Shown here: positions 5-25,692 of the stretch, in pieces | Layout of the letters: each line of letters opens with the position of its first letter | How positions within the stretch are numbered: position 1 is the first letter of the stretch | IMG/VR virus record: IMGVR_UViG_3300014838_000409 | Location: 1-26,467 of that record | DNA from: a virus | Length of the DNA: 26,467 bases | Reading direction: 5' to 3' (one strand) | Translations under genes and position numbers: made by a program | The notes under the pieces: generated by a model | Told to the model about the DNA's origin: nothing | The model's input: the letters and a program-made list of their open reading frames with translations, nothing else | Database searches by the model: none

Positions 5-1354
5 TTACCAATTCTCCTCGAAGTCAAATGTCTTGGATGCAAGTTGTGAACCTCTGTTCGGGTATTTCCACGAAATTGCAGTATAAATGTCCAAAAGTTT
101 ACTTCTCAACTCACGGTCATACATCTTATTACGATCAATATGCTCGGTCATGAACTTCAATAGCTCATCGGGATCGGTATCATCACCCTTGATTGCTAAT
201 GATTCAATATAGAAATCATTGGGAAGCAGATAGACCCACTTGACCTTCTCCCCCGTGCGTATCTTCTCAAACTGTTTATCTAGTTTCCACACCTTCAACA
301 AATCATTGTAAGCTAATGCCGCACGAACTTGGGCGGGAGACTTCATAATAAACTGGAATAACTTGCGATGAGACGGATTGTAATCATTTTCTCCATCCTT
401 GGAGATGTAGCGAACCGAACTGGTCTTGGCAAGATTAACCATCTCAAGACTTTGGATGGTCTCCTCAAAATTCATGATGCGTTCATCAAGGTCGGATTGC
501 GGAGTTCCCCGCAATAAATCATCAATCATATTTGAGGCAAACTTGCGAAACGCTGTCGGGAAACTTGAACGAACTACGTCAATGCCTTTGACTTCCAGTT
601 TACCCTCCTTACCGTCCTTGGACTTGACAGCCTTGTTCTTCTCCATGTCATAGACCTTAAGCATAGCGTAACGCTTCTTAGATACCCACATTGCCTTTTT
701 AGCAATTACGTCCGCCATGATCTTTATACGATTATGGTCAGGTGCCACATTGAATATCTTGGGCACCATATAGTTATAGAAATTATTGATTCGGGTGGAT
801 ACTGCGGTCACCCAATCAATGGTGAACTTAGTCATGTCTTCTTCTTTTACATTCTGCAATTTGGCCACTGACAATGCTGACATATACAGAGAGTCGGTAT
901 CAATGTAGATAACAAAGTCCTGTGCAGGAGGAACCACGTTTGCTTCCTTGAACTTTGTGAGATACATGTCATTGACTAATCGCTCGGCAGAACGAATAAT
1001 TTCTTGTCCCGAAGTAGTAACGGCTTCAGCATTGTCACGATCATAGAATCGGAACACAGGTAATCCTAATGCACCATAAACCGAGTTAAGGAAAATCTTC
1101 TGCCTCTTCTGACGACGGTCGTAGAATGATTCCTTTTCCTTGTCACCCTTCTTACCATACTCACCGGCAAGCTTGCGATATTCAACACGTTCCTTGAACC
1201 ATACATCAAGAATAGTAGGAACTACTCCACGCCCTTCTTCCTCAAATATATTCCCATCGGCATCTATACCCAGTCCGAGAGGTTTTAAATATGCATCAAG
1301 CAATTCCCGAGTTTCAAACTCAAGTATTTTTTCTTCTATTTCTACTTTTATCAT
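5..1354 (-). CDS. DNA polymerase family B, C-terminal fragment (palm/fingers/thumb)
   Basis: This is the catalytic C-terminal part of a T4-gp43-like replicative DNA polymerase. Motif B (KIFLNSVYG, residues 86-94) binds the incoming nucleotide. Motif C (IDTDS, around 151-155) supplies the metal-binding aspartates. A KKRY element follows in MWVSKKRYAM. The exonuclease domain and motif A are absent; they are in the separate gene at 2078-3463. At 449 aa it cannot be a complete polymerase (T4 gp43 is about 900 aa), but 449 plus 461 aa makes a normal total. Its ATG overlaps the HNH endonuclease stop (ATGA), so translation is probably coupled. Residues 17-50, including DADGNIFEEEGRGVVP, cover the linker between motifs A and B, and a related segment also ends the N-terminal piece. 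The two proteins probably assemble into one enzyme, as reported for split gene 43 in some T4-like phages. Family assignment is firm; activity of the split form is inferred. Confidence 0.95.
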   Translation of the reverse strand: MIKVEIEEKILEFETRELLDAYLKPLGLGIDADGNIFEEEGRGVVPTILDVWFKERVEYRKLAGEYGKKGDKEKESFYDRRQKRQKIFLNSVYGALGLPVFRFYDRDNAEAVTTSGQEIIRSAERLVNDMYLTKFKEANVVPPAQDFVIYIDTDSLYMSALSVAKLQNVKEEDMTKFTIDWVTAVSTRINNFYNYMVPKIFNVAPDHNRIKIMADVIAKKAMWVSKKRYAMLKVYDMEKNKAVKSKDGKEGKLEVKGIDVVRSSFPTAFRKFASNMIDDLLRGTPQSDLDERIMNFEETIQSLEMVNLAKTSSVRYISKDGENDYNPSHRKLFQFIMKSPAQVRAALAYNDLLKVWKLDKQFEKIRTGEKVKWVYLLPNDFYIESLAIKGDDTDPDELLKFMTEHIDRNKMYDRELRSKLLDIYTAISWKYPNRGSQLASKTFDFEENW

Positions 1355-2046
1355 ATCTTACGATACTCCACAATTCTTTTGCACATTTTTAAAAATTCAT
1401 CATCGGAGAAATCTTGCTTCATCCAATTAACATTTTTATGAACCCATTGAACGTTTCCTTTTACATATCCCCTCGATGAATCAATACGATCTAACGAAGC
1501 GGTTTGCTCAATTTTATCAGAACATCCAAATTCTAAATCCATACCAGATAATGCACACTTTCGTTTTTGCGAATCAAATAGATTCGAAATATATTCCAAT
1601 GTAATATCAAAATCTTTGTGAGTACGGATAGCATGATGTTTTATTCTTGTAAAAACTATCTTTGGAACTTTACCGAATCCTTTCCATAAATGGTTTAAAT
1701 TTTGGATTAAACATTTTTGACATCCATCATTATTTTCACATAACAATCGGGCGGCTCGTTTTTTAAGCACATTGCCACAATCACACCTACAAGAAACCTG
1801 AGTACCACTTCCTATTCGATTAGATAAAACAGTTAATTTTCCAAACCGCTGTCCTCGTTTGATGAGACAATCATACTTCGATCTATCTACAGTATTCTTC
1901 CATCTTTTTCTAGTAGCACATGATCGGCACAAAGTTCGTCCAAGTCGTTTCGATTCATAATATCCTTCATACGTAGGATAAAATTTAACCGCTTTGCAAT
2001 CGTCACAAATTATAGTCCATTTCTTAGAGTTCATATTTTCCTTCAT
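1351..2046 (-). CDS. HNH homing endonuclease splitting the DNA polymerase gene
   Basis: A free-standing HNH endonuclease of 231 aa that presumably spreads by cutting polymerase genes lacking it. The N-terminus has a zinc-ribbon pair (C14/C17 and C40/C43). Next comes a phage-typical module, GQRFGKLTVL followed by CRCDCGN (86-91) and more cysteines at 109/112. The C-terminal nuclease domain starts near CALSGMDLEFG, with SLDRIDS (184-190), GNVQWVHKNVN (197-207) and a conserved tail. These match HNH/EndoVII-like phage nucleases. Its stop overlaps the start of the C-terminal polymerase fragment, and its start lies 31 bp after the stop of the N-terminal fragment. It has its own start and stop, so it is an intergenic insertion and not an intein. 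I see no intron structure around it. A degraded relative lies at 3465-3640. Confidence 0.9.
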   Translation of the reverse strand: MKENMNSKKWTIICDDCKAVKFYPTYEGYYESKRLGRTLCRSCATRKRWKNTVDRSKYDCLIKRGQRFGKLTVLSNRIGSGTQVSCRCDCGNVLKKRAARLLCENNDGCQKCLIQNLNHLWKGFGKVPKIVFTRIKHHAIRTHKDFDITLEYISNLFDSQKRKCALSGMDLEFGCSDKIEQTASLDRIDSSRGYVKGNVQWVHKNVNWMKQDFSDDEFLKMCKRIVEYRKI

Positions 2047-2077
2047 CTATCATGACTATAAATATTAACAAAAAACA

Positions 2078-3463
2078 CTAACCGTCATTTTGTATTATTT
2101 TTCCAACAATTTTCCGGGTAGGTTGTTTATAGACAACTCCATTACTCGCTATAGAAAAAGCGTGATTAGCAATTAATTTCTTAAAATCATTGGAAGAATA
2201 TCCACGCTCACCTAGCCTTACAATAGGCATTTCTCCACGCTGAAACGCCATCATGTTCCATCCTTCGACCCTCCCAATTTTTTTCTCGGGACTTATATTT
2301 AATGTCATGATTACACTGGGATACAGTGACGTTATGTCCGCTGAACAAACCCAGTCATATAGTCCACTGACAGGTTCTTTAACGAATGCTCCAACGAATC
2401 CATCCTCACCACTTTCCTGCATGTCTTCATACTCTTCACGTCCACCAATGGGTTTATTGGAAGCAATTTTTCCAGAGCGAGATAAATATGTTAATATAGC
2501 CCCATCAATAAAGCGACTGGACATTTGAACCCATTCGTAAGGAACGTGCCCTTTATGACACACAGCTTGGGCAAGGTGAATGAAATCGTATTTATGGTCC
2601 AACTCCACCACGATCTTAACGTCCACCAAGTTATATTCGATATAACGATTCAAGTCTTCATTATACAATTGAGTCAAACTGCCACGATAAGTAAGCTTTT
2701 GATGCTTCAGTTCTTCATCTTTGGCAACATTTCCAAGTGCCCATGATGGTTTCATGACACCAATGAACTTCTTGTAGAGTTCCATATAGTCAAGACAAGA
2801 GACTCCTGCCACAACCATTTTGCGATTAAACTTGTTTTGATATACAATTCCAATCGGTGATAGACGATAGGCGGCTTGCTTTCCGACGACATTACGAATA
2901 CGATTGAAGAGATAAGGAATATCAAATCCATTAGAATTCCATCCCGTGACGATGGTAGGTTTGATCTGTTCCCACAGTGTCAAGCACGCATCCAATAAAG
3001 TATCCTCGCACTTAAACGAACGAATGTCAACTTCATCCGTAGTGCTGTTTGGGATTTTACATTCGGGGTCAAGAACCAATGAATGGTACTTGTTAGCCAC
3101 TTGGTCATATAATGCAATTGCAGTAATGGCTTTATCACCAGTTTGAATGTCAGGAAACCCACCTTCCGATGAAACTTCAATATCGATCACGACTATTTTA
3201 TGACCAACTGATACCTCATCACTATCAATATATTTATCTATGAGAGTCCGCATAGCTGGGTCAACATCCGACTCAAATAATGATGGGTCACGGTCATCGA
3301 ATGCCGTTATCTTATCCAACTCATCCCCATAAAGTGACCTGTATTTACCACCCGCCATCTTACGATAGGCATATCGTATTGTAGGAAATGATGAATATCC
3401 CGACATATCATCCCACAAATGAGTAACGCCATTCTTTTTATCGCAGAAAATATTTTGAAACAT
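2078..3463 (-). CDS. DNA polymerase family B, N-terminal fragment (exonuclease domain to motif A)
   Basis: The N-terminal half of the split replicative polymerase. The 3'-5' proofreading exonuclease motifs are present: Exo I VVIDIEV (D94, E96), Exo II NGFDIPYL (D181) and Exo III YNLVDV (Y277, D281). The polymerase domain begins with motif A, SADITSLYPSVI (D376), and NISPEKKIG. The protein ends at residue 461, soon after HAFSIASNGVVY, a segment that in whole polymerases leads to motif B. The last part (TRKIVGKIIQNDG) looks like an abrupt, altered end. The beginning resembles complete relatives, so the ATG at 3463 is probably close to native. Its start lies one base after the stop of a decayed HNH gene. 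Proofreading and half of the palm come from this protein, while motifs B and C come from the gene at 5-1354. Confidence 0.95.
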   Translation of the reverse strand: MFQNIFCDKKNGVTHLWDDMSGYSSFPTIRYAYRKMAGGKYRSLYGDELDKITAFDDRDPSLFESDVDPAMRTLIDKYIDSDEVSVGHKIVVIDIEVSSEGGFPDIQTGDKAITAIALYDQVANKYHSLVLDPECKIPNSTTDEVDIRSFKCEDTLLDACLTLWEQIKPTIVTGWNSNGFDIPYLFNRIRNVVGKQAAYRLSPIGIVYQNKFNRKMVVAGVSCLDYMELYKKFIGVMKPSWALGNVAKDEELKHQKLTYRGSLTQLYNEDLNRYIEYNLVDVKIVVELDHKYDFIHLAQAVCHKGHVPYEWVQMSSRFIDGAILTYLSRSGKIASNKPIGGREEYEDMQESGEDGFVGAFVKEPVSGLYDWVCSADITSLYPSVIMTLNISPEKKIGRVEGWNMMAFQRGEMPIVRLGERGYSSNDFKKLIANHAFSIASNGVVYKQPTRKIVGKIIQNDG

Positions 3464-5450: not shown

Positions 5451-6425
5451 ATGAATACAGGAGTGTATAAAATAACAAATATGACAAATGGCAAGATTTA
5501 CGTCGGGTCCACATCAGCGTTAGGATTTAAGAAACGATGGTGGGGACACCGCACCAGATTACGGGCAAATACCCACTGGAACCAACATCTCCAAAACTCA
5601 TGGAACAAACACGGCGAACAGCAATTTCGGTTTGAAATCATTGAAGAATGTCTTCCCAACGACTGCATTCCCCGTGAACAGTATTATTTTGACACACTGC
5701 ACCCCCAATACAATATCCTGCAAACTGCGGGGTCTATGTTTGGGTATCGGCATACCACAGCAACAAAACAAAAAATAGGAGATGCGTGTCGAGGAGAAAA
5801 ACATCCACAATATGCTGGAAAACACATATTCTATCACCCCGAAGATGGATATTTTAACGGAGGTCTCACGGAACTATGCACCAAGTTTAAAATTCGTGAA
5901 AACACGGGGTATCGACTTAGAAGTGGAGAACTGGACAAATCTCACGGATGGATATACATTGGAAATGATAAAACTCCATTACCAGAAAATATAGATGAAT
6001 TTTATTACAGCCGAATTCATAACGACCGAACCATATATTCATTTTTTCATAAAATCCACGGAAGGTTTCAGGGCGTCATCCCCGATTTTATGAAAAAATA
6101 TAACATCTCATTTCAAAATCAATCGATAATTCGAAAACTAATAGATGGAAAACGAAAAATGGCTTGGGGATGGATATTCTTGGGCGAAGGAATTCAATAC
6201 ATAACGTCAGACATAGAAACTAAATATATGACTGCACTCAAACAAAATACTAAAGCAAATAATCATATGGACATTATCTACGAATTTTTCAATTTCAAAA
6301 CGACTGAAAATTTCCGAGGAACTTTGCGGGAGTTAATTCGAAATTATAATCTCAACGATAAATGTGCCCGTGAAATGCTCAGTCAAAGAAAACCCCACCT
6401 TAAAGGATGGACTATAAAAAGTTGA
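5451..6425 (+). CDS. GIY-YIG homing endonuclease with three C-terminal DNA-binding repeats
   Basis: The N-terminal GIY-YIG domain is complete: GVY (4-6) with YVG (17-19), the arginine region KKRWWGHR (27-34), the catalytic glutamate in PREQYYFD (E76), and the conserved asparagine in PQYNIL (N88). A NUMOD3-like segment follows (GYRHTTATKQKIGDACRG). The rest consists of three diverged ~48-residue repeats. Each runs 'IY-x-FF...G....L...Y.I......L..G.....GW': about residues 124-170 (ending HGWIYIG), 196-245 (ending AWGWIFLG) and 274-324 (ending LKGWTIKS). These probably read extended target DNA. The gene lies in the gap between the divergent Tat and Cas4-like genes and is bracketed by a 12-bp direct repeat. 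Its stop at 6425 runs into the promoter of the Cas4-like gene. Its start follows an AT-rich stretch without a clear ribosome site. Confidence 0.9.
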   Translation: MNTGVYKITNMTNGKIYVGSTSALGFKKRWWGHRTRLRANTHWNQHLQNSWNKHGEQQFRFEIIEECLPNDCIPREQYYFDTLHPQYNILQTAGSMFGYRHTTATKQKIGDACRGEKHPQYAGKHIFYHPEDGYFNGGLTELCTKFKIRENTGYRLRSGELDKSHGWIYIGNDKTPLPENIDEFYYSRIHNDRTIYSFFHKIHGRFQGVIPDFMKKYNISFQNQSIIRKLIDGKRKMAWGWIFLGEGIQYITSDIETKYMTALKQNTKANNHMDIIYEFFNFKTTENFRGTLRELIRNYNLNDKCAREMLSQRKPHLKGWTIKS

Positions 6426-7375: not shown

Positions 7376-7400
7376 AAGCCTCCCTTACGGGAGGTTTTTT
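7376..7400 (+). terminator. intrinsic (rho-independent) terminator after the Cas4-like gene
   Basis: A perfect 6-bp GC-rich stem (CCTCCC at 7379-7384 and GGGAGG at 7389-7394) with a TTAC loop can be extended by three weaker pairs. It is followed directly by six T residues. It lies 17 bp after the Cas4-like stop codon and before the next promoter. Confidence 0.9.
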
Positions 7401-7433
7401 GTTGTCCCTCAGTATAAAGATATTTATAAAAAC

Positions 7434-7461
7434 TTTACATAATAATTTTCAATTATATACT
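7434..7461 (+). promoter_or_regulatory. putative sigma70-type promoter for the NUMOD4/HNH endonuclease
   Basis: TTTACA (7434-7439), a 16-bp spacer and TATACT (7456-7461) match the consensus in five of six positions in each box. The predicted start, about 7468, coincides with the ATG of the endonuclease, so this transcript too would be leaderless. Confidence 0.55.
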
Positions 7462-7467
7462 TCAACC

Positions 7468-7995
7468 ATGAATGAAATATGGAAAGATATTACCGACTAT
7501 GTAGGAGTTTATCAGGCATCATCATTGGGACGCCTTCGACGAGTGAGTAAAACCGATTCAATCGGACGATGTTATAATTATTCCGACCTAAAAATTAGAA
7601 CGTTACCACGATATGATGCCGCAATATTTTGCCACAACGGAAAGCGTAAGATGATGTTGTTACATCAAGTGATTGCCCAAACATTTCTCCAATATCCAAC
7701 GTGCTGCCCAACATGTAAGACCCCATATGAAATAAATCACATAGATGGAAATCCACACAACAATGCAGCAGACAATTTAGAATATGTAACACATGTTGAA
7801 AACATTCAAAAGTCGAGAAATGCTCGACGTAAAAAACAATGGAAATCACTAGATGATACGAAAGTATTAAAAATCAAACACCTTCTCGCTCAAAAAATAA
7901 CTTCACAAGTCGAAATTTCTAAAATGTTTAATGTATCTAAAAGCACCATAAGTGAGATAGCACACAATAGAATATGGACGGATGTCTCACTATAA
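7468..7995 (+). CDS. NUMOD4/HNH homing endonuclease with C-terminal helix-turn-helix
   Basis: A 175-aa protein with the standard phage layout. A NUMOD4 motif comes first (IWKDITDYVGVYQASSLGRL, residues 4-23). The HNH domain follows, with LLHQVIAQTF (H66), a CCPTC knuckle (79-83), INHIDGNPHNNAADNLEYV (H91, N103) and the closing HVENIQKS. A helix-turn-helix at about 145-170 (SQVEISKMFNVSKSTISEIA) should bind DNA. The ATG at 7468 is preferred over an upstream in-frame extension to 7399. The NUMOD4 motif begins right there, and the extension would run through the terminator T-run and the promoter. The neighbours are a terminator on the left and the regulator gene on the right, so it sits in a transcriptionally quiet gap with its own promoter. 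Confidence 0.9.
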   Translation: MNEIWKDITDYVGVYQASSLGRLRRVSKTDSIGRCYNYSDLKIRTLPRYDAAIFCHNGKRKMMLLHQVIAQTFLQYPTCCPTCKTPYEINHIDGNPHNNAADNLEYVTHVENIQKSRNARRKKQWKSLDDTKVLKIKHLLAQKITSQVEISKMFNVSKSTISEIAHNRIWTDVSL

Positions 7996-17002: not shown

Positions 17003-18524
17003 CAACTTCGTTATTTTAATTGGAAGTCATAACAATGCCCAATGGGTTGAAAGTAACCTCAACTCTGTGCTTGTCCAAAACTATCCAAACTATAAGGTCG
17101 TTTATTTCGACGATGCTTCCACAGATGGAACCAAAGATGCCGTGGCAAGAAAGATTGAGGGCGACTCACGATTCACTATTGCTAATGTGGAAGAAAGAAA
17201 ATACAAGACGTGGTTCTTTTCCAACATTGAACATTTTAAGGAAATAAACGATAATGATATATTAGTATTCCTCGATGGCGATGACATGTTATATTGTGAA
17301 AACGTTCTTTCCTATCTGAATGAACTATACAACCAAACAAATTGTTGGATGACCTACGGTGGCATGGTGGTATGGAAGGGCGGGGAAGACCTTATTGAAC
17401 CATTTCCCCAAAATAGTGAAATTCCTCCACAAGTTTCAAAACAAAAACTATTTCGCAAGGATACATGGAGGACATCCCACCTAAAGACCATGCGAGCATT
17501 CGTATGGAAACGGATAGATAAAAATGACTTAATGCCCAATGGAATTCCATTGGTTGGACCCGATGATTTGGCAATCATGTTTGCCGCATTAGAACTGACG
17601 CCTGCCGACAAAATTCAAAGGGTCACCGAATCCATTTACCTTTACAACCATACCCAAGCGAATCAAAAGAGCCGAGCCTTCACGGACAATCAAGCGGTTG
17701 GTATTGACTATGAGTCTCCCATTAGAGCACGCAATCCGTACGATACTATCCAAATCATTTCTCCCACACTTGCGGGAGGACTCGGCAATCAGATGTTCGA
17801 GGTTGCTGCCGCCGCCTCTTTAGCCAAAGATAACAATGCGTTGCTCGTGATAAACCCTAATGAACACATTCTGCCGAACCAAGGTAGGAATATAAACATC
17901 TATTTATCCAATATATTTCGTAAAGTCGCCACTGATAGCAATCCTCCGTGTAAGCAGGAATATAAATGGGACCAAATGTCTTATGCCCCTATCCCATTTC
18001 AACCCGACACTAAACTCAAGAGTCATTTTCAATCGTTCAAGTATTTTGACCACAATCGGGACTATATCCGAGACCTGTTCGCCCCATCTAAAGATATTTT
18101 GGATAAAATAATAGACACATATCCAGATACATCCAATATTACCGCTATACAAGTAAGAAGAGGTGATTATATCAAATTTCCAAACCATCACCCTCTATTA
18201 TCATCAGAATATTATGCTAAAGCGGTAAATTCCCTTGCTTCTGAGAAGGTATGGGTGTTTAGTGATGATATTCAATGGTGTAAAGAAAACTTGCATTTCT
18301 ACTGTCCCGTCGAATACATAAAAGATGAGGACTACATCGAGTTATATCTCATGAGTCTATGCAAAAACATTGTTATATCAAATAGTTCTTTTGGGTGGTG
18401 GTCGAGCTATTTATCTAATGATTCTAACGTATATGTTCCTCCGATATGGTTTGGAAATGCCCTAATAAATAATGGATTTAAATATGAAGACTTGATATTG
18501 CCAGAATGGCATATAGTAAAATGA
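16995..18524 (+). CDS. GT2-GT11 fusion: glycosyltransferase plus alpha-1,2-fucosyltransferase domain
   Basis: A two-domain enzyme of 509 aa. Residues 1-240 are a GT2 domain: VILIGSHNNAQWVESNLNSV, FDDASTDG (D39/D40) and the metal site LDGDD (94-97). Residues ~255-509 are a GT11 domain: LAGGLGNQMFEVAAAASLA (GGLGNQ at 261-266), the GDP-fucose-binding VRRGDY (387-392) and SNSSFGWWSSYLS (around 462-474). The known GT11 family is alpha-1,2-fucosyltransferase (or galactoside 2-L-fucosyltransferase). The two active sites could add two successive sugars, the second being fucose. The linker at 225-255 has no motif. No frameshift is visible, so the fusion is real in this sequence. The stop overlaps the start of an inserted endonuclease gene (ATGA). 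Confidence 0.9.
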   Translation: MDNNFVILIGSHNNAQWVESNLNSVLVQNYPNYKVVYFDDASTDGTKDAVARKIEGDSRFTIANVEERKYKTWFFSNIEHFKEINDNDILVFLDGDDMLYCENVLSYLNELYNQTNCWMTYGGMVVWKGGEDLIEPFPQNSEIPPQVSKQKLFRKDTWRTSHLKTMRAFVWKRIDKNDLMPNGIPLVGPDDLAIMFAALELTPADKIQRVTESIYLYNHTQANQKSRAFTDNQAVGIDYESPIRARNPYDTIQIISPTLAGGLGNQMFEVAAAASLAKDNNALLVINPNEHILPNQGRNINIYLSNIFRKVATDSNPPCKQEYKWDQMSYAPIPFQPDTKLKSHFQSFKYFDHNRDYIRDLFAPSKDILDKIIDTYPDTSNITAIQVRRGDYIKFPNHHPLLSSEYYAKAVNSLASEKVWVFSDDIQWCKENLHFYCPVEYIKDEDYIELYLMSLCKNIVISNSSFGWWSSYLSNDSNVYVPPIWFGNALINNGFKYEDLILPEWHIVK

Positions 18525-19435
18525 AGAAAAAAACACAAGAAGAATTTATAAATGCTGCTTCGAAAAAACATAATAATAAATATGATTACTCAAAATCAAT
18601 TTATAATGGATGTAAGAAAAAAGTTATAATCATATGTAAGAAACACGGAGAATTTTTACAAGAAGCGTGGTCACATTTAAAAGGATTTGGATGCTCGGCA
18701 TGTAGTAATAATCTTAAATCTAATACTCCACAATTTATCTCTCAAGCGATTCAAAAACACGGGAATGAATATGATTATTCAAAATCAACATATAAAAATA
18801 AGAATAAAAAACTCGATATAATATGTAAAATTCACGGAGTTTTTTCTCAAACTCCAACGAACCACTTATCCGGACAAGGATGCCCTGCATGTTACGGCAC
18901 ATTTAAAAAATCGTCGGTAGAATTTATAGCAGACGCAATCAAAAAACACGGAAACATATATGATTATTCTCATATAAATTATTCGACGGCACATTCTCCT
19001 GTAAATATAATATGTAAAATTCATGGAAAGTTTTCCCAGACTCCACACAATCATCTAAAAGGACATGGATGTCCATCATGTTGTTCTTCATGGGGAGAAA
19101 CACGAATTGAACAGTGGTTGAAAATGAACAATATTCAATATGAACGACAAAAAACATTTTCCAATCTGAAAAATCCAAAAACCAGTTATCCATTAAAGTT
19201 TGATTTTTATGTTTCCTCGAAAAATTTACTAATTGAATATGATGGAGAACAACATTTCAAACTAGGAAGTATATTCGGAAAACATCAAATAACAATAAAA
19301 AATTTGAGAGATATAAAATATAGGGACAAAATAAAAACCAAATATGCAAAACACAATAAAATTCGACTATTAAGAATTCCATATACAGAATTCCCTAAAA
19401 TTCACGCAATACTAAATGAAAAAATAGTTCTATGA
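18521..19435 (+). CDS. homing-type endonuclease: three DUF723-like zinc repeats plus PD-(D/E)XK-like nuclease
   Basis: A 304-aa protein. Three ~58-residue repeats (about 5-62, 66-123 and 128-185) each follow 'F...A...HGN.YDYS...Y......V.IICK.HG.F.Q....HL.G.GCP.C', with paired Cys/His that should bind zinc and contact DNA. The last ~115 residues form a Vsr/DUF559-like nuclease: GETRIEQWLKMNN, then FDFYVSSKNLLIEYDGEQHF with its D...ExD/H catalytic set, and IRLLRIPY. ATGA overlaps join it to the fusion gene before and the GT10 gene after. It is clearly more AT-rich than they are (14 of 60 G/C at 18601-18660 against 22 of 60 at 19681-19740), consistent with transfer. The ATG at 18521 is chosen over an upstream in-frame start inside the previous gene. 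Confidence 0.88.
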   Translation: MKKKTQEEFINAASKKHNNKYDYSKSIYNGCKKKVIIICKKHGEFLQEAWSHLKGFGCSACSNNLKSNTPQFISQAIQKHGNEYDYSKSTYKNKNKKLDIICKIHGVFSQTPTNHLSGQGCPACYGTFKKSSVEFIADAIKKHGNIYDYSHINYSTAHSPVNIICKIHGKFSQTPHNHLKGHGCPSCCSSWGETRIEQWLKMNNIQYERQKTFSNLKNPKTSYPLKFDFYVSSKNLLIEYDGEQHFKLGSIFGKHQITIKNLRDIKYRDKIKTKYAKHNKIRLLRIPYTEFPKIHAILNEKIVL

Positions 19436-20301
19436 ATACGATTATATATCACACCAGTGAAACCCAAGCCAATTACGTAGAACAAATCCCACCTCGGGAT
19501 AACACATGGGCATGGGCTACCGGGCATCCAGATGGAAACATGCACTTCTTCGAGGATGATAAACTCCCAACCCACATTAATTATAAAGGAAAAAAAGTGG
19601 CGTGTCTTATCGAATGTCCTGCAATCATGGATTATTGCAAGGGAAATTATCCATCGGTGTTTCACCCTTACCAATGGATTATAGACAATCACCAATACTT
19701 TGATGTCATTATGAGTCCATTCACTTACTTGAAGGACGTGGTTGGTGACAAATACTGGTGGATTCCCGCCGGTGGAAACCGTATCGAATTTGAAAATTTT
19801 GGGTTGTGGGAGAAAGAACGAATCCTCTCTATAGTTGCCTCCGACAAGCAATGGATCACTGGACATAAACTACGTCATCAAATCATTCAGAAGTTCGGCA
19901 GTAAAATGGATGTTTATGGTCGTGGATATAATGACTTTGTTGACAAATATGATAACAATCGCCGTGGAAAAATTATTGCCTTGGGACCATATTATTACTC
20001 ATTAGCCATCATGAATGCTCAATATGATGATTATTTCACAGAAATCTTGACAGATGTCTTGGCATGTGGTACAATACCAATATTCTGGGGCACAAAGAAT
20101 ATAGGAAAATATTTCAATCCCAATGGTATCATTCAATTTAATACCATCGACGAATTTGAATCATTACTTCCTACCCTGACTCCCGAACTGTATAAATCGA
20201 AGATGCCTGCCATAATTGAGAACATAGAGAAGGCAAAATTGTATAACACACGATTTGATTGGATATACGATAATTATCGTTTTTTGCTCGAAACACTTTA
20301 A
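19432..20301 (+). CDS. GT10-type (alpha-1,3/4) fucosyltransferase-like glycosyltransferase
   Basis: A 289-aa enzyme. The C-terminal half follows the GT10 fucosyltransferase pattern: MDVYGRGYNDF, a Y-x-x-x-SLAIMNAQYDDYFTEILTD segment (family: 'FxLaFENs...dYvTEKl'), then CGTIPIFWGTKNIGKYFNP. In GT10 enzymes this region binds GDP-fucose. The first half is variable, as in that family. A second fucosyltransferase domain is present in the GT2-GT11 fusion upstream, so a glycan with more than one fucose-like residue is plausible. In the ancestral order this gene probably followed the fusion gene directly; an endonuclease now separates them. An 18-bp gap follows before the next endonuclease. Confidence 0.8.
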   Translation: MNTIIYHTSETQANYVEQIPPRDNTWAWATGHPDGNMHFFEDDKLPTHINYKGKKVACLIECPAIMDYCKGNYPSVFHPYQWIIDNHQYFDVIMSPFTYLKDVVGDKYWWIPAGGNRIEFENFGLWEKERILSIVASDKQWITGHKLRHQIIQKFGSKMDVYGRGYNDFVDKYDNNRRGKIIALGPYYYSLAIMNAQYDDYFTEILTDVLACGTIPIFWGTKNIGKYFNPNGIIQFNTIDEFESLLPTLTPELYKSKMPAIIENIEKAKLYNTRFDWIYDNYRFLLETL

Positions 20302-20319
20302 TTGGCAATATTTATTGGT

Positions 20320-21231
20320 ATGAGTCGAAAATTAACAATCGCACAATTTAAAGAAAACGCCATTAAAATTCATGGAAATGTTTATGATTATTCAGACTCC
20401 AACTATAACGGATATGAGGAGAAAATATTAATTAAATGCAAAAAGCATGGAAAGTTTTATCAGACCCCACACAATCATATAGGGAACGAGCAAGGGTGTC
20501 CTATCTGTCATAGGTTAACGAAAACGACAAACGAGTTTATAATTAATGCCAAAAAAATACATAAAAATAGATTCGACTATTCGGATACAAAATATATTAA
20601 TAATTACACCCCAGTTATTATCAAATGTCATGTTCATGGCAATTTTACACAATTACCAAAAAATCATCTGAATGGAACTCCCTGTCCAAAATGTTCAAAG
20701 GAAAAAGAAACACACACCACAGATGACTTTATAAAATCGGCTATACAAACTCATGGACAATTGTATAACTATGATGGGGTAGATTATAAAACGTCATATG
20801 ATAAAGTAAAAATTATTTGTCGAAAACACGGACCATTTTGGATAAGACCAAATAATCATTTGGCAAGTAAAAGTGGGTGTCCCAAATGCCGATGGTCTAA
20901 AGGAGAATTAAAAATTTTTAATTACCTAAATGGAAGAAAGATTGAGTTTGAACGGAATAAAACATTTCCGCTTTGCGTAGGTAAAACTGGATGGACTCTA
21001 AAATATGATTTTTATATTCCATCGGTCAAGTTATTAATAGAATACGATGGCGAACAACACTTCAAACCATCCATGATAGGATATTATAAGGTATCAAAGA
21101 ATGATGTCAAAAACAATCAATGTCGTGATAGAATAAAGGATAAATTCGCCAATGATAACGGTATTAAATTGTTGCGGATTCCGTATTGGAAAGAACGCCA
21201 CATCGAAAAAATATTGGAAGAAAATTTATGA
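20320..21231 (+). CDS. homing-type endonuclease, second DUF723-like/PD-(D/E)XK-like protein
   Basis: A 303-aa paralogue of the protein at 18521-19435 with the same plan. There are three Cys/His repeats, for example IKCKKHGKFYQTPHNHIG, IKCHVHGNFTQLPKNHLNG and IICRKHGPFWIRPNNHLAS, each closing with C-x-x-C. The same nuclease domain follows: KGELKIFNYLNG, YDFYIPSVKLLIEYDGEQHF and IKLLRIPYW. The nuclease domains are much more alike than the repeats, as expected if repeats diverge to read different targets. The ATG at 20320 is preferred over a TTG at 20302. It is preceded by ATATTTATTGGT, nearly the same as the bases before the GIY-YIG ATG. It overlaps the next gene by ATGA. Confidence 0.88.
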   Translation: MSRKLTIAQFKENAIKIHGNVYDYSDSNYNGYEEKILIKCKKHGKFYQTPHNHIGNEQGCPICHRLTKTTNEFIINAKKIHKNRFDYSDTKYINNYTPVIIKCHVHGNFTQLPKNHLNGTPCPKCSKEKETHTTDDFIKSAIQTHGQLYNYDGVDYKTSYDKVKIICRKHGPFWIRPNNHLASKSGCPKCRWSKGELKIFNYLNGRKIEFERNKTFPLCVGKTGWTLKYDFYIPSVKLLIEYDGEQHFKPSMIGYYKVSKNDVKNNQCRDRIKDKFANDNGIKLLRIPYWKERHIEKILEENL

Positions 21232-21578
21232 ATGGTGATTACATTAGGGTAATGTCTGATGGAAGTGAATGTTTTGTAAAAGATACGGAAGTATTTTTAT
21301 CTCTTTATACGGAAAAGCCTGATGTATATGTTCGTCCGACAATTCAACAATTTAATTATCTCATAGAAAATGGAATGGGGGATTTTTTAGGAAAACATAT
21401 TGTCGGACAATATGGAGACAACAAAGATTATTTTGTAGAAGAGCACAAAATAAGAAGCATTGAAAAAGGAACAGAAATATGGGATTTGGAATGGTGTGAA
21501 ATTGGAGAATTCTATTTTTTATATGATAACCAATCTCTCACACTAAACCGAGTCGGAACAAAAATAGAAAATTTATGA
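21228..21578 (+). CDS. hypothetical protein (116 aa)
   Basis: I do not recognise this 116-aa protein. It begins MNGDYIRVMSDGSECFVKD and has a mixed, strand-rich composition with VRPTIQQFNYLIENGMGDFL in the middle and no obvious catalytic or metal motif. It overlaps the endonuclease stop before it (ATGA) and the methyltransferase start after it (ATGA). It may be a native cluster gene or a passenger that came with the endonuclease. Confidence 0.6.
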   Translation: MNGDYIRVMSDGSECFVKDTEVFLSLYTEKPDVYVRPTIQQFNYLIENGMGDFLGKHIVGQYGDNKDYFVEEHKIRSIEKGTEIWDLEWCEIGEFYFLYDNQSLTLNRVGTKIENL

Positions 21579-22243
21579 TAACAATAAAAGATGCCATTCC
21601 AAATGGAATACACAATGTCAAGGAATATGTTGATTATACCGATGAATATTTTAAAACTAATGGCGGTTGCTTAAAACAATGGATGATAAATTGTACCCCT
21701 GGGTCTGCCAAGAATCAAAATTTTAATTATCGACTGTACAATCTTATCTCAAGCCGACCATTAACTATACTAGATATTGGATGCGGTGATGGAGCGTTCG
21801 TAGGAGATTGCATTGCGGACGGTTATAACGCCTATGGAATCGAAGGAAATCCATATTATAGAGAACTCGGAGTGCGGTCATGGGGTAAATTTCCATCTAA
21901 TTTCTTTATTACAGATATTGGAAAAGATTTTACTCTCATCGAAAACAATATTACAGTTGCGTTTGATGCCATAACAAGTTGGGAATTTTTTGAACATATT
22001 CACCCCGATGCCGTGCTAAAAATGGCAGAAAACATCAATAAACATTCTAAGGTAGGAACATGGCTTATATTTTCAGCCAGCCAACGATATGATCCACCTG
22101 GGCATCAGACCATAAAAAGTAAGCAGGAATGGATTGAAGTGTTTCAGCATTTAGGTTTTGAAAACACAAATGAAAACTTCGGTGGTGATGTCATTCGAAA
22201 TGAACCTGATAGCATCATCTGCTACATGAGAAAAGTCAAATAA
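21575..22243 (+). CDS. class I SAM-dependent methyltransferase
   Basis: A 222-aa Rossmann-fold methyltransferase. LTILDIGCGDGAFVGDCI (around 63-80) is motif I, binding S-adenosylmethionine. YNAYGIEGNPYY contains the acidic residue after strand 2, and AITSWEFFEHIHPDAVLKMA is the motif IV/post-IV region. YDPPGHQTIKSKQEWIEVFQ near the C-terminus is typical of the Methyltransf_23-type enzymes in polysaccharide clusters. The substrate is probably a sugar or nucleotide-sugar, by context. It is followed by an SDR and an RfbH-type dehydratase. Confidence 0.85.
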   Translation: MITIKDAIPNGIHNVKEYVDYTDEYFKTNGGCLKQWMINCTPGSAKNQNFNYRLYNLISSRPLTILDIGCGDGAFVGDCIADGYNAYGIEGNPYYRELGVRSWGKFPSNFFITDIGKDFTLIENNITVAFDAITSWEFFEHIHPDAVLKMAENINKHSKVGTWLIFSASQRYDPPGHQTIKSKQEWIEVFQHLGFENTNENFGGDVIRNEPDSIICYMRKVK

Positions 22244-22248
22244 CCATT

Positions 22249-23082
22249 ATGAAATACACTGTATTGGGTTCGGCAGGACAAATTGGGCGTCAGCTTACTC
22301 ATTTCCTGAAACAGAAGGGGCATCAAGTTACTGAATTCGACATTTATGATGCTCCATATCAAGACCTTCGGATTGAATATGCAGTTGATGCTTATATCAA
22401 GGACTCGGACTTTGTATTCTTTTTGGCATTCGACGTGGGTGGATCACAGTATTTGAAGAAATACCAATCCACATTTGATTTCGTGGACAACAACGTCCGC
22501 ATAATGGCTAATACATTCGCTTCATTGAAGAGTTTTAATAAGCCATTTCTATTCGCATCTACGCAGATGTCGAATATGCACTTTTCAAGCTATGGGTCAT
22601 TAAAGTCCGTCGGGGAACATTACTGTCGAGTTCTCAACAGCCCCATTATAAAGTTTTGGAATGTATATGGAATAGAATCTGACCCCGAGAAGACCCACGT
22701 CATTACTGACTTCGTAAAGATGGCACTAAAGGGTCAGATCAACATGAAGACGGATGGCTCTGAGGAGCGTCAGTTCTTATATTCTACCGATTGCTGTGAA
22801 TCACTTTACAACTTATCACAACAGTATGATAAGTTGTCACGAACTAATGAATACCACATTACAACTTTCGAATGGGTAACCGTCAATCGAATCGCTCTCG
22901 TCATATCCCAACTATGTAATGGGGCAACGATTGTTCCCTCGGAGGCACATGATACAGTTCAACGTGACCAACGAAACGAACCCAACAGGTTTATTTTAAC
23001 CGAAGGAATTTGGAAACCAAAAACTACCATCGAACAGGGAATCGCTCGAATCGTGGAATACGAAAAGTTACATGCCAACTAA
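22249..23082 (+). CDS. NAD(P)-dependent SDR sugar epimerase/dehydratase/reductase
   Basis: A 277-aa extended short-chain dehydrogenase. The dinucleotide-binding GxxGxxG is seen in YTVLGSAGQIGRQL (G7, G10, G13), and the catalytic Tyr-x3-Lys in SSYGSLKSVGE (Y115, K119). IIKFWNVYGIE is the usual NVYG-type segment of nucleotide-sugar epimerases. It overlaps the RfbH-type gene by 11 bp, so the two are probably used together. In the 3,6-dideoxyhexose pathways, SDR enzymes such as RfbJ or RfbS reduce the 4-keto product made by RfbH and its reductase. This gene could have that role, but the exact reaction cannot be told from the sequence. Confidence 0.8.
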   Translation: MKYTVLGSAGQIGRQLTHFLKQKGHQVTEFDIYDAPYQDLRIEYAVDAYIKDSDFVFFLAFDVGGSQYLKKYQSTFDFVDNNVRIMANTFASLKSFNKPFLFASTQMSNMHFSSYGSLKSVGEHYCRVLNSPIIKFWNVYGIESDPEKTHVITDFVKMALKGQINMKTDGSEERQFLYSTDCCESLYNLSQQYDKLSRTNEYHITTFEWVTVNRIALVISQLCNGATIVPSEAHDTVQRDQRNEPNRFILTEGIWKPKTTIEQGIARIVEYEKLHAN

Positions 23083-24409
23083 AGAATACATTCAAAGTCT
23101 CGTTGCTGAATACATCATAGACAAGCACAAAAACAAGACATGGACCGCAGGTAAGGATTGGGTTCAATATGCGGGTCCATATTTCGATGAGAAGGAATAC
23201 GTCAAAGCAATAGGCACCCTATTGGACGAATGGCTTGTCCTTGGAAACGATGCTATTGAGTTCGAGAAGAAATTTGCACCACTTTTGGGTAAAAAGTATG
23301 GCATCATTGTAAACAGTGGATCAAGTGCCAATCTAATAATGATGGCAACTGCCAAACAGTATTATGGGTGGAAGGATGGGGATAAAGTCATTGTGCCCGT
23401 GGCAGGATTTCCCACCACTGTCAATCCAATAATTCAATGTGGACTGATTCCTATGTTCGTTGATATTGAGTTAGATACACTCAATTTGAATTTGGACCAA
23501 ACGGAAAGGGCTTGCAAGAGTGGAGCGGTTGCCATTACCTTTGCCCATGTGTTGGGGAATCCTCCGGATATGGATCGAGTAATGGAGATTGTAAGGAAAT
23601 ATAACCTTATATTACTCGAAGATTGTTGTGATGCATTGGGGTCAACGTATGACGGTCGGCCAACAGGTCACGATGGTGTCATGGCAACATGTTCATTCTA
23701 TCCCGCCCACCACATTACAATGGGTGAAGGTGGATTTGTGGCATGTGCCAACCAAGAATTGGAAAAAATAGCCAGAAGTTTTCGGGAATGGGGACGCTCA
23801 TGTTATTGCGTTGGGAAGAAAGCCAATCTATCAACCAAAGGGTCGTGTGGATGTCGATTCAAGCAATGGTTGCCATCGTTACCGGGTGAAATTTTCGACC
23901 ATAAGTATGTTTACGATAATATCGGATACAATATGAAGCCACTTGAATTGCAAGCTTCGATTGGACTGATTCAATTAGAAAAGCTCCCAGAAATACACAA
24001 ACAACGTAAAGCCAATCATACGTATTTAATGGAAATATTCACTCCCCACGAAAAATATTTTCACATGCATAAAGCAACTCCAAAATCCGATCCCTCTTGG
24101 TTCGCATTCCCTCTCACAATAAAAGACAATGCTCCATTCAAACGGTTTGAATTTACAAAATATCTCGAAGACAATAAAATTCAAACTCGTAATTATTTCG
24201 GGGGAAATTTACTCCTACAACCACTTTACAAAGACATAAAGTTCCAATGTTGGATGGGGGGGGTAATTTCTGACCCCAAAATCCAATTTCCGATAGCAAC
24301 GAAAGTGACAACCAATACATTTTTTCTCGGGGTTAGTCCGGTGATTACACGAGACCAATTGGATTATGTCAGAGAAACGATAGAATTATTCTTCAAAAAA
24401 TACAAATAA
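23072..24409 (+). CDS. rfbH: RfbH/E1-type CDP-4-keto-6-deoxyglucose 3-dehydratase
   Basis: A PLP enzyme of the DegT/DnrJ aminotransferase fold in which the PLP lysine is replaced by histidine: SFYPAHHITMGEGGF, first His at residue 213. This is the hallmark of 3-dehydratases (RfbH/E1/AscC and ColD). Cysteines support the RfbH/E1 subtype, which holds a 2Fe-2S cluster. C186, C244 and C246 reproduce the C-x57-C-x-C spacing known for E1; the fourth, probably C259, is 12 rather than 7 residues further on. WGRSCYC and SCGCRF match the family context. The reaction removes the 3-OH of CDP-4-keto-6-deoxyglucose on the way to 3,6-dideoxyhexoses such as abequose, paratose or ascarylose. A partner reductase (RfbI-like) is not in the window. 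An 8-G run near 24250 does not break the frame. Confidence 0.88.
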   Translation: MPTKEYIQSLVAEYIIDKHKNKTWTAGKDWVQYAGPYFDEKEYVKAIGTLLDEWLVLGNDAIEFEKKFAPLLGKKYGIIVNSGSSANLIMMATAKQYYGWKDGDKVIVPVAGFPTTVNPIIQCGLIPMFVDIELDTLNLNLDQTERACKSGAVAITFAHVLGNPPDMDRVMEIVRKYNLILLEDCCDALGSTYDGRPTGHDGVMATCSFYPAHHITMGEGGFVACANQELEKIARSFREWGRSCYCVGKKANLSTKGSCGCRFKQWLPSLPGEIFDHKYVYDNIGYNMKPLELQASIGLIQLEKLPEIHKQRKANHTYLMEIFTPHEKYFHMHKATPKSDPSWFAFPLTIKDNAPFKRFEFTKYLEDNKIQTRNYFGGNLLLQPLYKDIKFQCWMGGVISDPKIQFPIATKVTTNTFFLGVSPVITRDQLDYVRETIELFFKKYK

Positions 24410-24449
24410 TTTATCTTTTTATCCTTATATCTTATATTTATATTGTGAC

Positions 24450-24578
24450 ATGAAGAATTTAAAAATATCCGAGGAAACCCACCGTAAACTTAAGATTTAT
24501 TGTGCAAAAAATAATTTGAAAATGAATGAGTGGGTAGATACTCTAATAAAACGCAATATTAAATCAAATGTCAAGTAA
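24450..24578 (+). CDS. tiny ribbon-helix-helix protein (42 aa)
   Basis: A 42-aa frame starting MKNLKISEETHRKLKIYCAK and continuing KMNEWVDTLIKR. This matches a minimal ribbon-helix-helix domain: the LKIS strand, a helix from EETHRKLKIYC, a turn, and a second helix from MNEWVDTLIKR. Its end overlaps the start of the repeat endonuclease at 24568 by 11 bp, so the two are probably co-translated. The protein may regulate the endonuclease or help it bind DNA. Upstream is an AT-rich gap of 40 bases with a possible TATATT -10 (24433-24438) but no good -35. Confidence 0.7.
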   Translation: MKNLKISEETHRKLKIYCAKNNLKMNEWVDTLIKRNIKSNVK

Positions 24579-25692
24579 ATTAACAACTGAAGAATTTATT
24601 AGACGTGCTCAGATTATTCATAATAACATTGTTTATGACAAAGTTATTTATAACGGCACACATTCCAAGGTCGTATTGCGATGCCCAATTCATGGACAAT
24701 TCCGACAAACTCCACATAACCATTTAATTGGATGTGGATGCCCCGGCTGTGGAGGAAAAGTTAAATTGGACAATAAATTATATATTAAACGTGCCAAGGA
24801 AATACATGGAAATTTTTATGATTATTCAGAATTAAATTATCAAACATCCAAGAGTAAAGTCAAAATAATATGCCCAATTCACGGACAATTCTTTCAGCTA
24901 CCATCTAGTCATCTCGAAGGGCATGGATGTTCTCATTGCGGCGGGTCAAATAAATGGACGACGAATCAATTCATAACAATTGCATCCGGGTTACATAAAA
25001 ATAAATATGATTATTCCGACACTGTTTACACCAACAATAATACAAAAATAACCATTATATGTCCTATACACGGGAAATTTCAACAACGAGCAGCAGATCA
25101 CATCAGAACAAAACATGGATGTACTAAATGCAGTGGAGTAAATAAAAAATCCAATTCTGACTTTATAATGGATGCCATCAAATTACATGGACATAAATAT
25201 GAGTATCCGAAAGCCAATTACAAAAACGATTATACAAAAATAGTCATTACATGTAAAAACCACGGTGATTTTTTACAGACGCCAAATCGCCACTTACAGG
25301 GCGATGGCTGTCCAAAATGCACTCATAAAATATCTGCCCCAGAAATAAAATTTTTGAATTATTGTAGAATCCCCGATAACATAAACCATAGACAAAAATA
25401 TATTGCTCCATATAAAGTAGATGCGGAACACAATGGTATTATCTATGAATTTCTCGGGGATTATTGGCACGGAAATCCATCCAAATATTCACATAAAAAT
25501 ATAAACCAATCAACACATAAAACTTTCGGAAAATTGTATGCTGATACAGTTCTCAAATTTCAAAGATTAAATCAATTGGGATATAAAATCAGATATATTT
25601 GGGAATCCGATTGGCTTCAATTCGAAAACGGCATAACATCAATCCCGAAAATAATAGAATACAATGGCAATATTCCGAGTCAAGCACAATAA
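24568..25692 (+). CDS. homing-type endonuclease: four DUF723-like repeats plus EDxHD (Vsr-like) nuclease
   Basis: A 374-aa protein. Four Cys/His repeats make up the first ~265 residues, such as LRCPIHGQFRQTPHNHLIG, IICPIHGQFFQLPSSHLEG, IICPIHGKFQQRAADHIRT and ITCKNHGDFLQTPNRHLQG, each closed by C-x-x-C. The nuclease domain differs from that of the two paralogues. KISAPEIKFLNY is followed by YKVDAEHNGIIYEFLGDYWH, GNPSKY, LKFQRLNQLGYKIRYIWESD. The acidic and histidine residues (E, D, then H in GDYWHGNP and D in ESDW) suggest the EDxHD type of phage homing endonuclease related to Vsr, as in I-Bth0305I. The same repeat module is thus joined to two nuclease types in one window. It overlaps a 42-aa RHH gene upstream and the methyltransferase start downstream (29 bp). 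Confidence 0.85.
   Translation: MSSKLTTEEFIRRAQIIHNNIVYDKVIYNGTHSKVVLRCPIHGQFRQTPHNHLIGCGCPGCGGKVKLDNKLYIKRAKEIHGNFYDYSELNYQTSKSKVKIICPIHGQFFQLPSSHLEGHGCSHCGGSNKWTTNQFITIASGLHKNKYDYSDTVYTNNNTKITIICPIHGKFQQRAADHIRTKHGCTKCSGVNKKSNSDFIMDAIKLHGHKYEYPKANYKNDYTKIVITCKNHGDFLQTPNRHLQGDGCPKCTHKISAPEIKFLNYCRIPDNINHRQKYIAPYKVDAEHNGIIYEFLGDYWHGNPSKYSHKNINQSTHKTFGKLYADTVLKFQRLNQLGYKIRYIWESDWLQFENGITSIPKIIEYNGNIPSQAQ

Follow-up and report, generated by a model that had tools for sequence, protein, structure and literature searches.

Probable free-standing homing endonuclease genes with zinc-repeat arrays and Vsr-like nucleases in an uncultured tailed phage

A 26-kb fragment of an uncultured phage (IMG/VR record IMGVR_UViG_3300014838_000409, positions 1 to 26,467, referred to below as the window) carries three open reading frames (ORFs) in which arrays of Cys/His repeats are joined to a nuclease domain, which raises the question of what such proteins do and whether their arrays read DNA. 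An earlier note on this DNA had given the coordinates of the three ORFs, repeat counts of three, three and four, and short nuclease motifs, all of which were confirmed, and had proposed a modular system in which the array might specify the target, one repeat per few bases. The reading favored here, with a probability of about 0.9, is that the three ORFs are free-standing homing endonuclease genes (HEGs) of a tailed phage. Homing, a form of selfish mobility, is the main biological point of the locus and was missing from the earlier note. The three ORFs are as follows:

18521..19435, plus strand: HEG1, three zinc repeats and an A-type nuclease (FDFY...IEYDGEQHF), Vsr/EDxHD-like
20302..21231, plus strand: HEG2, three zinc repeats and an A-type nuclease
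24568..25692, plus strand: HEG3, four zinc repeats and a Vsr/EDxHD-like B-type nuclease (VD...YEFLGDYWHGNP)

The ORFs, their repeats, the conserved pattern of metal ligands, the predicted folds and the presence or absence of the genes at their junctions were obtained directly. HEG1 has a GT2/GT11 gene on one side and a GT10 gene on the other, and shares a 4-base ATGA overlap with each of them, so that the operon stays intact. HEG2, which more likely starts at an in-frame ATG (20320) than at its doubtful TTG, lies between the GT10 gene and an epimerase gene and is followed by two more genes which relatives do not have, while HEG3 occupies the junction between a DegT aminotransferase gene and a methyltransferase gene. 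In a related phage contig (L087), the order GT11-GT10-epimerase-DegT-methyltransferase is found with neighbors that are 54-75% identical at the protein level, and all three HEGs are absent, together with the small ORF preceding HEG3 and the two genes following HEG2. Another relative (L091) carries a HEG1 relative at the same GT11/GT10 junction, 61% identical over the whole protein, and no gene, HEG2 included, separates its GT10 and epimerase genes. A B-type HEG is also inserted in L032 between two transketolase genes, which abut in L087. Free-standing HEGs are known to occur between conserved genes in one phage and to be missing there in a related one (PMC2988022), and this intergenic pattern, at the same junctions of related phages, was found for HEG1-3.

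The repeats are C2HC treble-clef-like domains of about 60 residues, spaced 63-64 residues apart, rather than the approximately 58 residues given in the earlier note. They are located as follows, all on the plus strand:

18527..18706, plus strand: HEG1 repeat 1
18716..18895, plus strand: HEG1 repeat 2
18905..19084, plus strand: HEG1 repeat 3
20329..20511, plus strand: HEG2 repeat 1
20518..20697, plus strand: HEG2 repeat 2
20710..20892, plus strand: HEG2 repeat 3
24574..24753, plus strand: HEG3 repeat 1
24763..24942, plus strand: HEG3 repeat 2
24952..25134, plus strand: HEG3 repeat 3
25144..25323, plus strand: HEG3 repeat 4

The zinc-type Cys and His residues of the C-x2-H-G...H...C-x2-C core are invariant in all ten repeats, which have A11, H15, Y21, Y26, C37, H40, G41, F43, H50, C56 and C59 in common. 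Every one of 394 repeats of related proteins has Cys at positions 37, 56 and 59; at position 40, 92% have His and 5% Cys, the pattern expected for a zinc ligand. This conserved pattern, together with the families to which the repeats are related, suggests that they bind zinc. A profile of the four HEG3 repeats scores 230 bits on HEG1 and 205 bits on HEG2, compared to 10 for the best of 2000 shuffled sequences. The Pfam family DUF4379 (“probable treble clef zinc finger”) reaches 29.3, 28.7 and 41.8 for HEG1, HEG2 and HEG3, respectively, above its cut-off of 24.5, and DUF723 exceeds its cut-off of 20.9 for HEG2 (40.5) and HEG3 (37.6) and falls under it for HEG1 (16.6). The best score of the CapR domain (PF21817) is 20.8, below its cut-off of 24.2, and the HEG repeats are thus related to this domain, not members of it.

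The nuclease domains follow directly upon the arrays:

19085..19432, plus strand: HEG1 nuclease domain, residues 189-304, with conserved E193, D228, E239, H245 and D269
20893..21228, plus strand: HEG2 nuclease domain, A-type
25324..25689, plus strand: HEG3 nuclease domain, B-type, residues 253-374, with conserved E259, D285, E294 and H301

AlphaFold2 models of HEG1 and HEG3, made from alignments of the loci, have a mean predicted local distance difference test (pLDDT) score of 92.7 and 89.4, respectively; their low predicted template modeling (pTM) scores (0.57 and 0.45) fit separate beads. For the HEG1 nuclease model, Z is 11.0 against Vsr (1cw0) and 10.8 against the catalytic domain of I-Bth0305I (3r3p_B), the latter at a root-mean-square deviation (rmsd) of 2.3 Å over 91 residues. 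The values for the HEG3 nuclease model, Z 8.1 and Z 6.5 against the same two structures, are middling on their own, with Vsr-like chains among the top rows. The description of the nucleases as “unrelated-looking” in the earlier note thus did not hold, since both models match Vsr and I-Bth0305I. A direct profile-profile comparison (hhalign) of the A-type with the B-type nuclease fails, at a probability of 0.3%, yet the nuclease of a further relative (L084) bridges the two in single-pair comparisons, with 94.8% to the A-type and 82.6% to the B-type. Because the structure matches agree and the L084 nuclease matches both types, the A- and B-type nucleases most likely share one Vsr/EDxHD fold from which they have diverged. 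E193, D228, E239, H245 and D269 are invariant in 38 nucleases of the HEG1/2 type, an EDxHD-like pattern, whereas nucleases of the HEG3 type all keep D285 and H301 and nearly all keep E259. PHROGs 559 and 681 label such proteins “endonuclease”. The assignment to HNH endonucleases, as PHROG 559 is labeled, was rejected: no HNH family match was obtained in HEG1-3 at E<=1, and the fold is Vsr-like. The same family search did detect HNH_3 in the window ORF 7399-7995, and the “HNH” label is therefore misleading here.

In all three proteins a nuclease domain is thus joined to domains that are predicted, from folds and families, to bind DNA. By analogy with the named families, HEG1-3 would bind zinc and DNA, cleave, and home. 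The three or four treble-clef-like domains of the array, which would bind zinc (“beads on a string”; DUF4379/DUF723, CapR-related), would grip a long DNA site, and the tethered Vsr/EDxHD-type (PD-(D/E)XK-like) nuclease would cut the DNA. The likely target would be the corresponding junction of a co-infecting relative without the HEG, and repair of the cut from the HEG-bearing copy would spread the HEG together with its flanks. The arrays are very probably DNA-targeting, again by analogy, and several domains probably contribute jointly to target specificity. Several points weigh against this reading. With relatives about 70% identical, loss in L087 and gain in the window are not separable for each gene; a PDB sequence search with the repeat profile found no solved structure of the repeat; the last Asp of EDxHD is without a clear counterpart in HEG3; and the catalytic residues were assigned by pattern and fold. 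More generally, no significant match was obtained when the PDB was searched by sequence with the whole proteins, the profile of the repeats and the profiles of the two nucleases. Two other assignments were tried and set aside: a defense system, for which PADLOC gave only weak hits (E values of at least 0.0013), and an intron-borne origin, as no Rfam match at the gathering score was found in the window.

HEG1 has relatives in 992 and HEG3 in 1145 of 50,697 phage records, all of them less than 60% identical and many of them annotated as “homing endonuclease” or “Hef-like”. Among 126 distinct ORFs of the loci retrieved, the A-type nuclease stands behind one to eight repeats and the B-type behind one to five; other partners of the repeats are the L084 nuclease and, as read from the sequence, a GIY-YIG-like domain in L085. 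The L084 protein (L084:1379-3310; 643 amino acids) consists of five repeats, the bridging Vsr-like nuclease and a further C-terminal region, which appears to resemble the end of that from L085. Repeat identity between A- and B-type proteins (45%) is close to that among A-type proteins (47%), and for many B-type repeats the closest match is an A-type repeat; judged by these identities, the repeats of both types form one shared pool. Where a repeat stands in the array matters little, repeats being about equally alike at any position (last-last 0.47 vs last-other 0.47). Two tandem HEGs in L116 (L116:3097-4879) have nucleases that are identical over about 110 residues and repeats that are 81%, 33% and 71% identical, and on such figures are a natural array-swap pair. 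The modular system of the earlier note, built of variable zinc-finger arrays and exchangeable nucleases, is thus supported at the sequence level by the range of repeat number (1-8), the single repeat pool, the several nuclease partners and the L116 pair.

The earlier note had considered such a system undescribed, yet both its architecture (PMC12350094) and its modularity (PMC10448857) are already published. A 2025 study (PMC12350094) presented phage HEGs with three to five CapR/DUF4379/DUF723-like domains of about 60 amino acids, followed by a C-terminal EDxHD/Vsr-like nuclease of about 100 amino acids; it proposed that the repeats bind DNA, and it placed these HEGs among thousands of relatives in a large, mostly unannotated group. 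HEG1-3 have the same architecture and are new free-standing examples of it, located between genes, whereas the published HEGs reside in introns of groups I and II. As a further difference, two of the three carry the A-type nuclease. The T5orf172 HEGs (PMC10448857, 2023) likewise contain repeated, swapping CapR/DUF723 domains, as “beads on a string” for which emergent specificity was proposed; they resemble HEG1-3 in their related zinc-finger domains of variable number and in the evidence for repeat recombination and domain swapping, but their nuclease is GIY-YIG, in contrast to the Vsr/EDxHD-like nuclease of HEG1-3. The EDxHD homing endonuclease I-Bth0305I (PDB 3r3p) shares the nuclease fold (Z 10.8 for HEG1 and Z 6.5 for HEG3); it is absent from the matches of the nuclease profiles in the PDB sequence-profile search, and the comparison covered its nuclease domain. 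The seg and mob genes of T4 and hef of phage U5 (PMC2988022) are, like HEG1-3, intergenic, free-standing and present or absent among related phages; the seg and mob nucleases are GIY-YIG or HNH, unlike those of HEG1-3, and hef is likened to HEG1-3 by description.

The same genes could be mainly weapons against competing phages or satellites, whose DNA they would cut (marker exclusion); homing would then be a secondary effect. HEG-related nucleases are reported to act in phage-satellite conflict, and CapR, a relative of the HEG DNA-binding domains, to be a repressor in satellites (PMC10448857); HEG1-3 are intact and co-oriented, and HEG1 overlaps both of its neighbors by 4 bases. Yet patchy occurrence at several junctions of relatives is what simple homing predicts, and there is no sign of a satellite or of any one competitor, such that a primary role as weapons appears unlikely. 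Still less probable, and the least so of the alternatives weighed here, is that the arrays bind RNA or scaffold proteins rather than a DNA sequence, the nuclease domain providing most of the specificity. What brings this to mind is the best Foldseek match of the whole HEG3 model, namely 6yxx_E2 (E 3.5e-4, probability 0.99), a ribosome-associated protein that is an assembly factor of the trypanosome mitoribosome; the alignment, however, has an rmsd of 18 Å over 300 columns, which indicates similar beads and not a common arrangement. Moreover, DNA binding is reported (PMC10448857) for CapR, the closest relative that has been studied, and the pairing of the arrays with several nuclease types is as expected for a DNA-binding module. 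As a separate observation, the match of the HEG3 repeats (24574-25323) to 6yxx_E2, for all its large rmsd, hints at similar zinc arrays in ribosome-associated proteins.

The most far-reaching alternative is the one raised by the earlier note, namely a programmable, collinear array in which the variable hairpin residues of each repeat would recognize a few bases and the length of the target would follow from the number of repeats. If true, array and nuclease would be recombinable into a compact natural platform of programmable nucleases. Repeat number does range from one to eight among relatives, and the zinc hairpin has fixed positions in alternation with polar, highly variable ones (42, 44, 46, 48, 49, 52 and 54), an arrangement that would suit base reading but would fit any exposed hairpin as well. 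HEG1 and its same-site counterpart in L091 are 38% identical at the variable positions, the 99th percentile of 671 control pairs, but identity is equally raised at their other variable positions (40%), as plain orthology predicts, and the same-site pair L023/L026 is only 7% identical at the variable positions, against a control mean of 14%. Two pairs at the same junction differ in repeat number, three versus four: L101 and L135, of which L135 is the best match of L101 and L101 narrowly the second-best of L135, and L112 and L152, which are not closest relatives and possibly arrived separately. Across five same-site pairs, a small test, conservation at the variable positions gave no consistent signal, and the same-junction comparisons lend no support to a rigid collinear code. 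Since cleavage sites may lie away from insertion points, a code would be compatible with these differences; no repeat-to-base code for such arrays was found in the searches made of the open-licence literature, and its existence here is judged very improbable.

HEG2 and HEG3 also have neighbors that are absent from relatives:

21228..22243, plus strand: two genes 3' of HEG2, encoding a 116-amino-acid ORF and an S-adenosylmethionine (SAM) methyltransferase, absent from L087 and from the same junction of L091
24450..24578, plus strand: ribbon-helix-helix-like ORF of 42 amino acids, immediately 5' of HEG3 and overlapping its start, not in L087

The two genes after HEG2 are possible cargo, passengers of the same exchange. 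Homologues of the 42-amino-acid ORF precede three other B-type HEGs (L008, L011 and L025), which suggests a recurrent companion of B-type HEGs, perhaps a regulator of the nuclease gene. Elsewhere in the window, a family B DNA polymerase gene (5-3463, minus strand) is interrupted by an ORF (1351-2046) that divides it into two parts and has a relative close to a HEG in L094; the related polymerase of L097 is one continuous ORF of 862 amino acids, and no Rfam intron match was found in the window at the split polymerase. The ORFs 5451-6425 (GIY-YIG with NUMOD3) and 7399-7995 (HNH with NUMOD4) are also HEG-like, and the 26-kb fragment therefore holds about six homing-type genes.

The family to which HEG1-3 belong is large and mostly mis-annotated (“HNH”, “hypothetical”), and the searches made turned up neither a mapped target nor a solved structure of the repeat. 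The window, L087 and L091 together provide matched filled and empty sites for three of its proteins. The tandem enzymes of L116, near-identical cutters with different arrays, are directly usable material for asking if the arrays determine DNA specificity and, if so, by what means.

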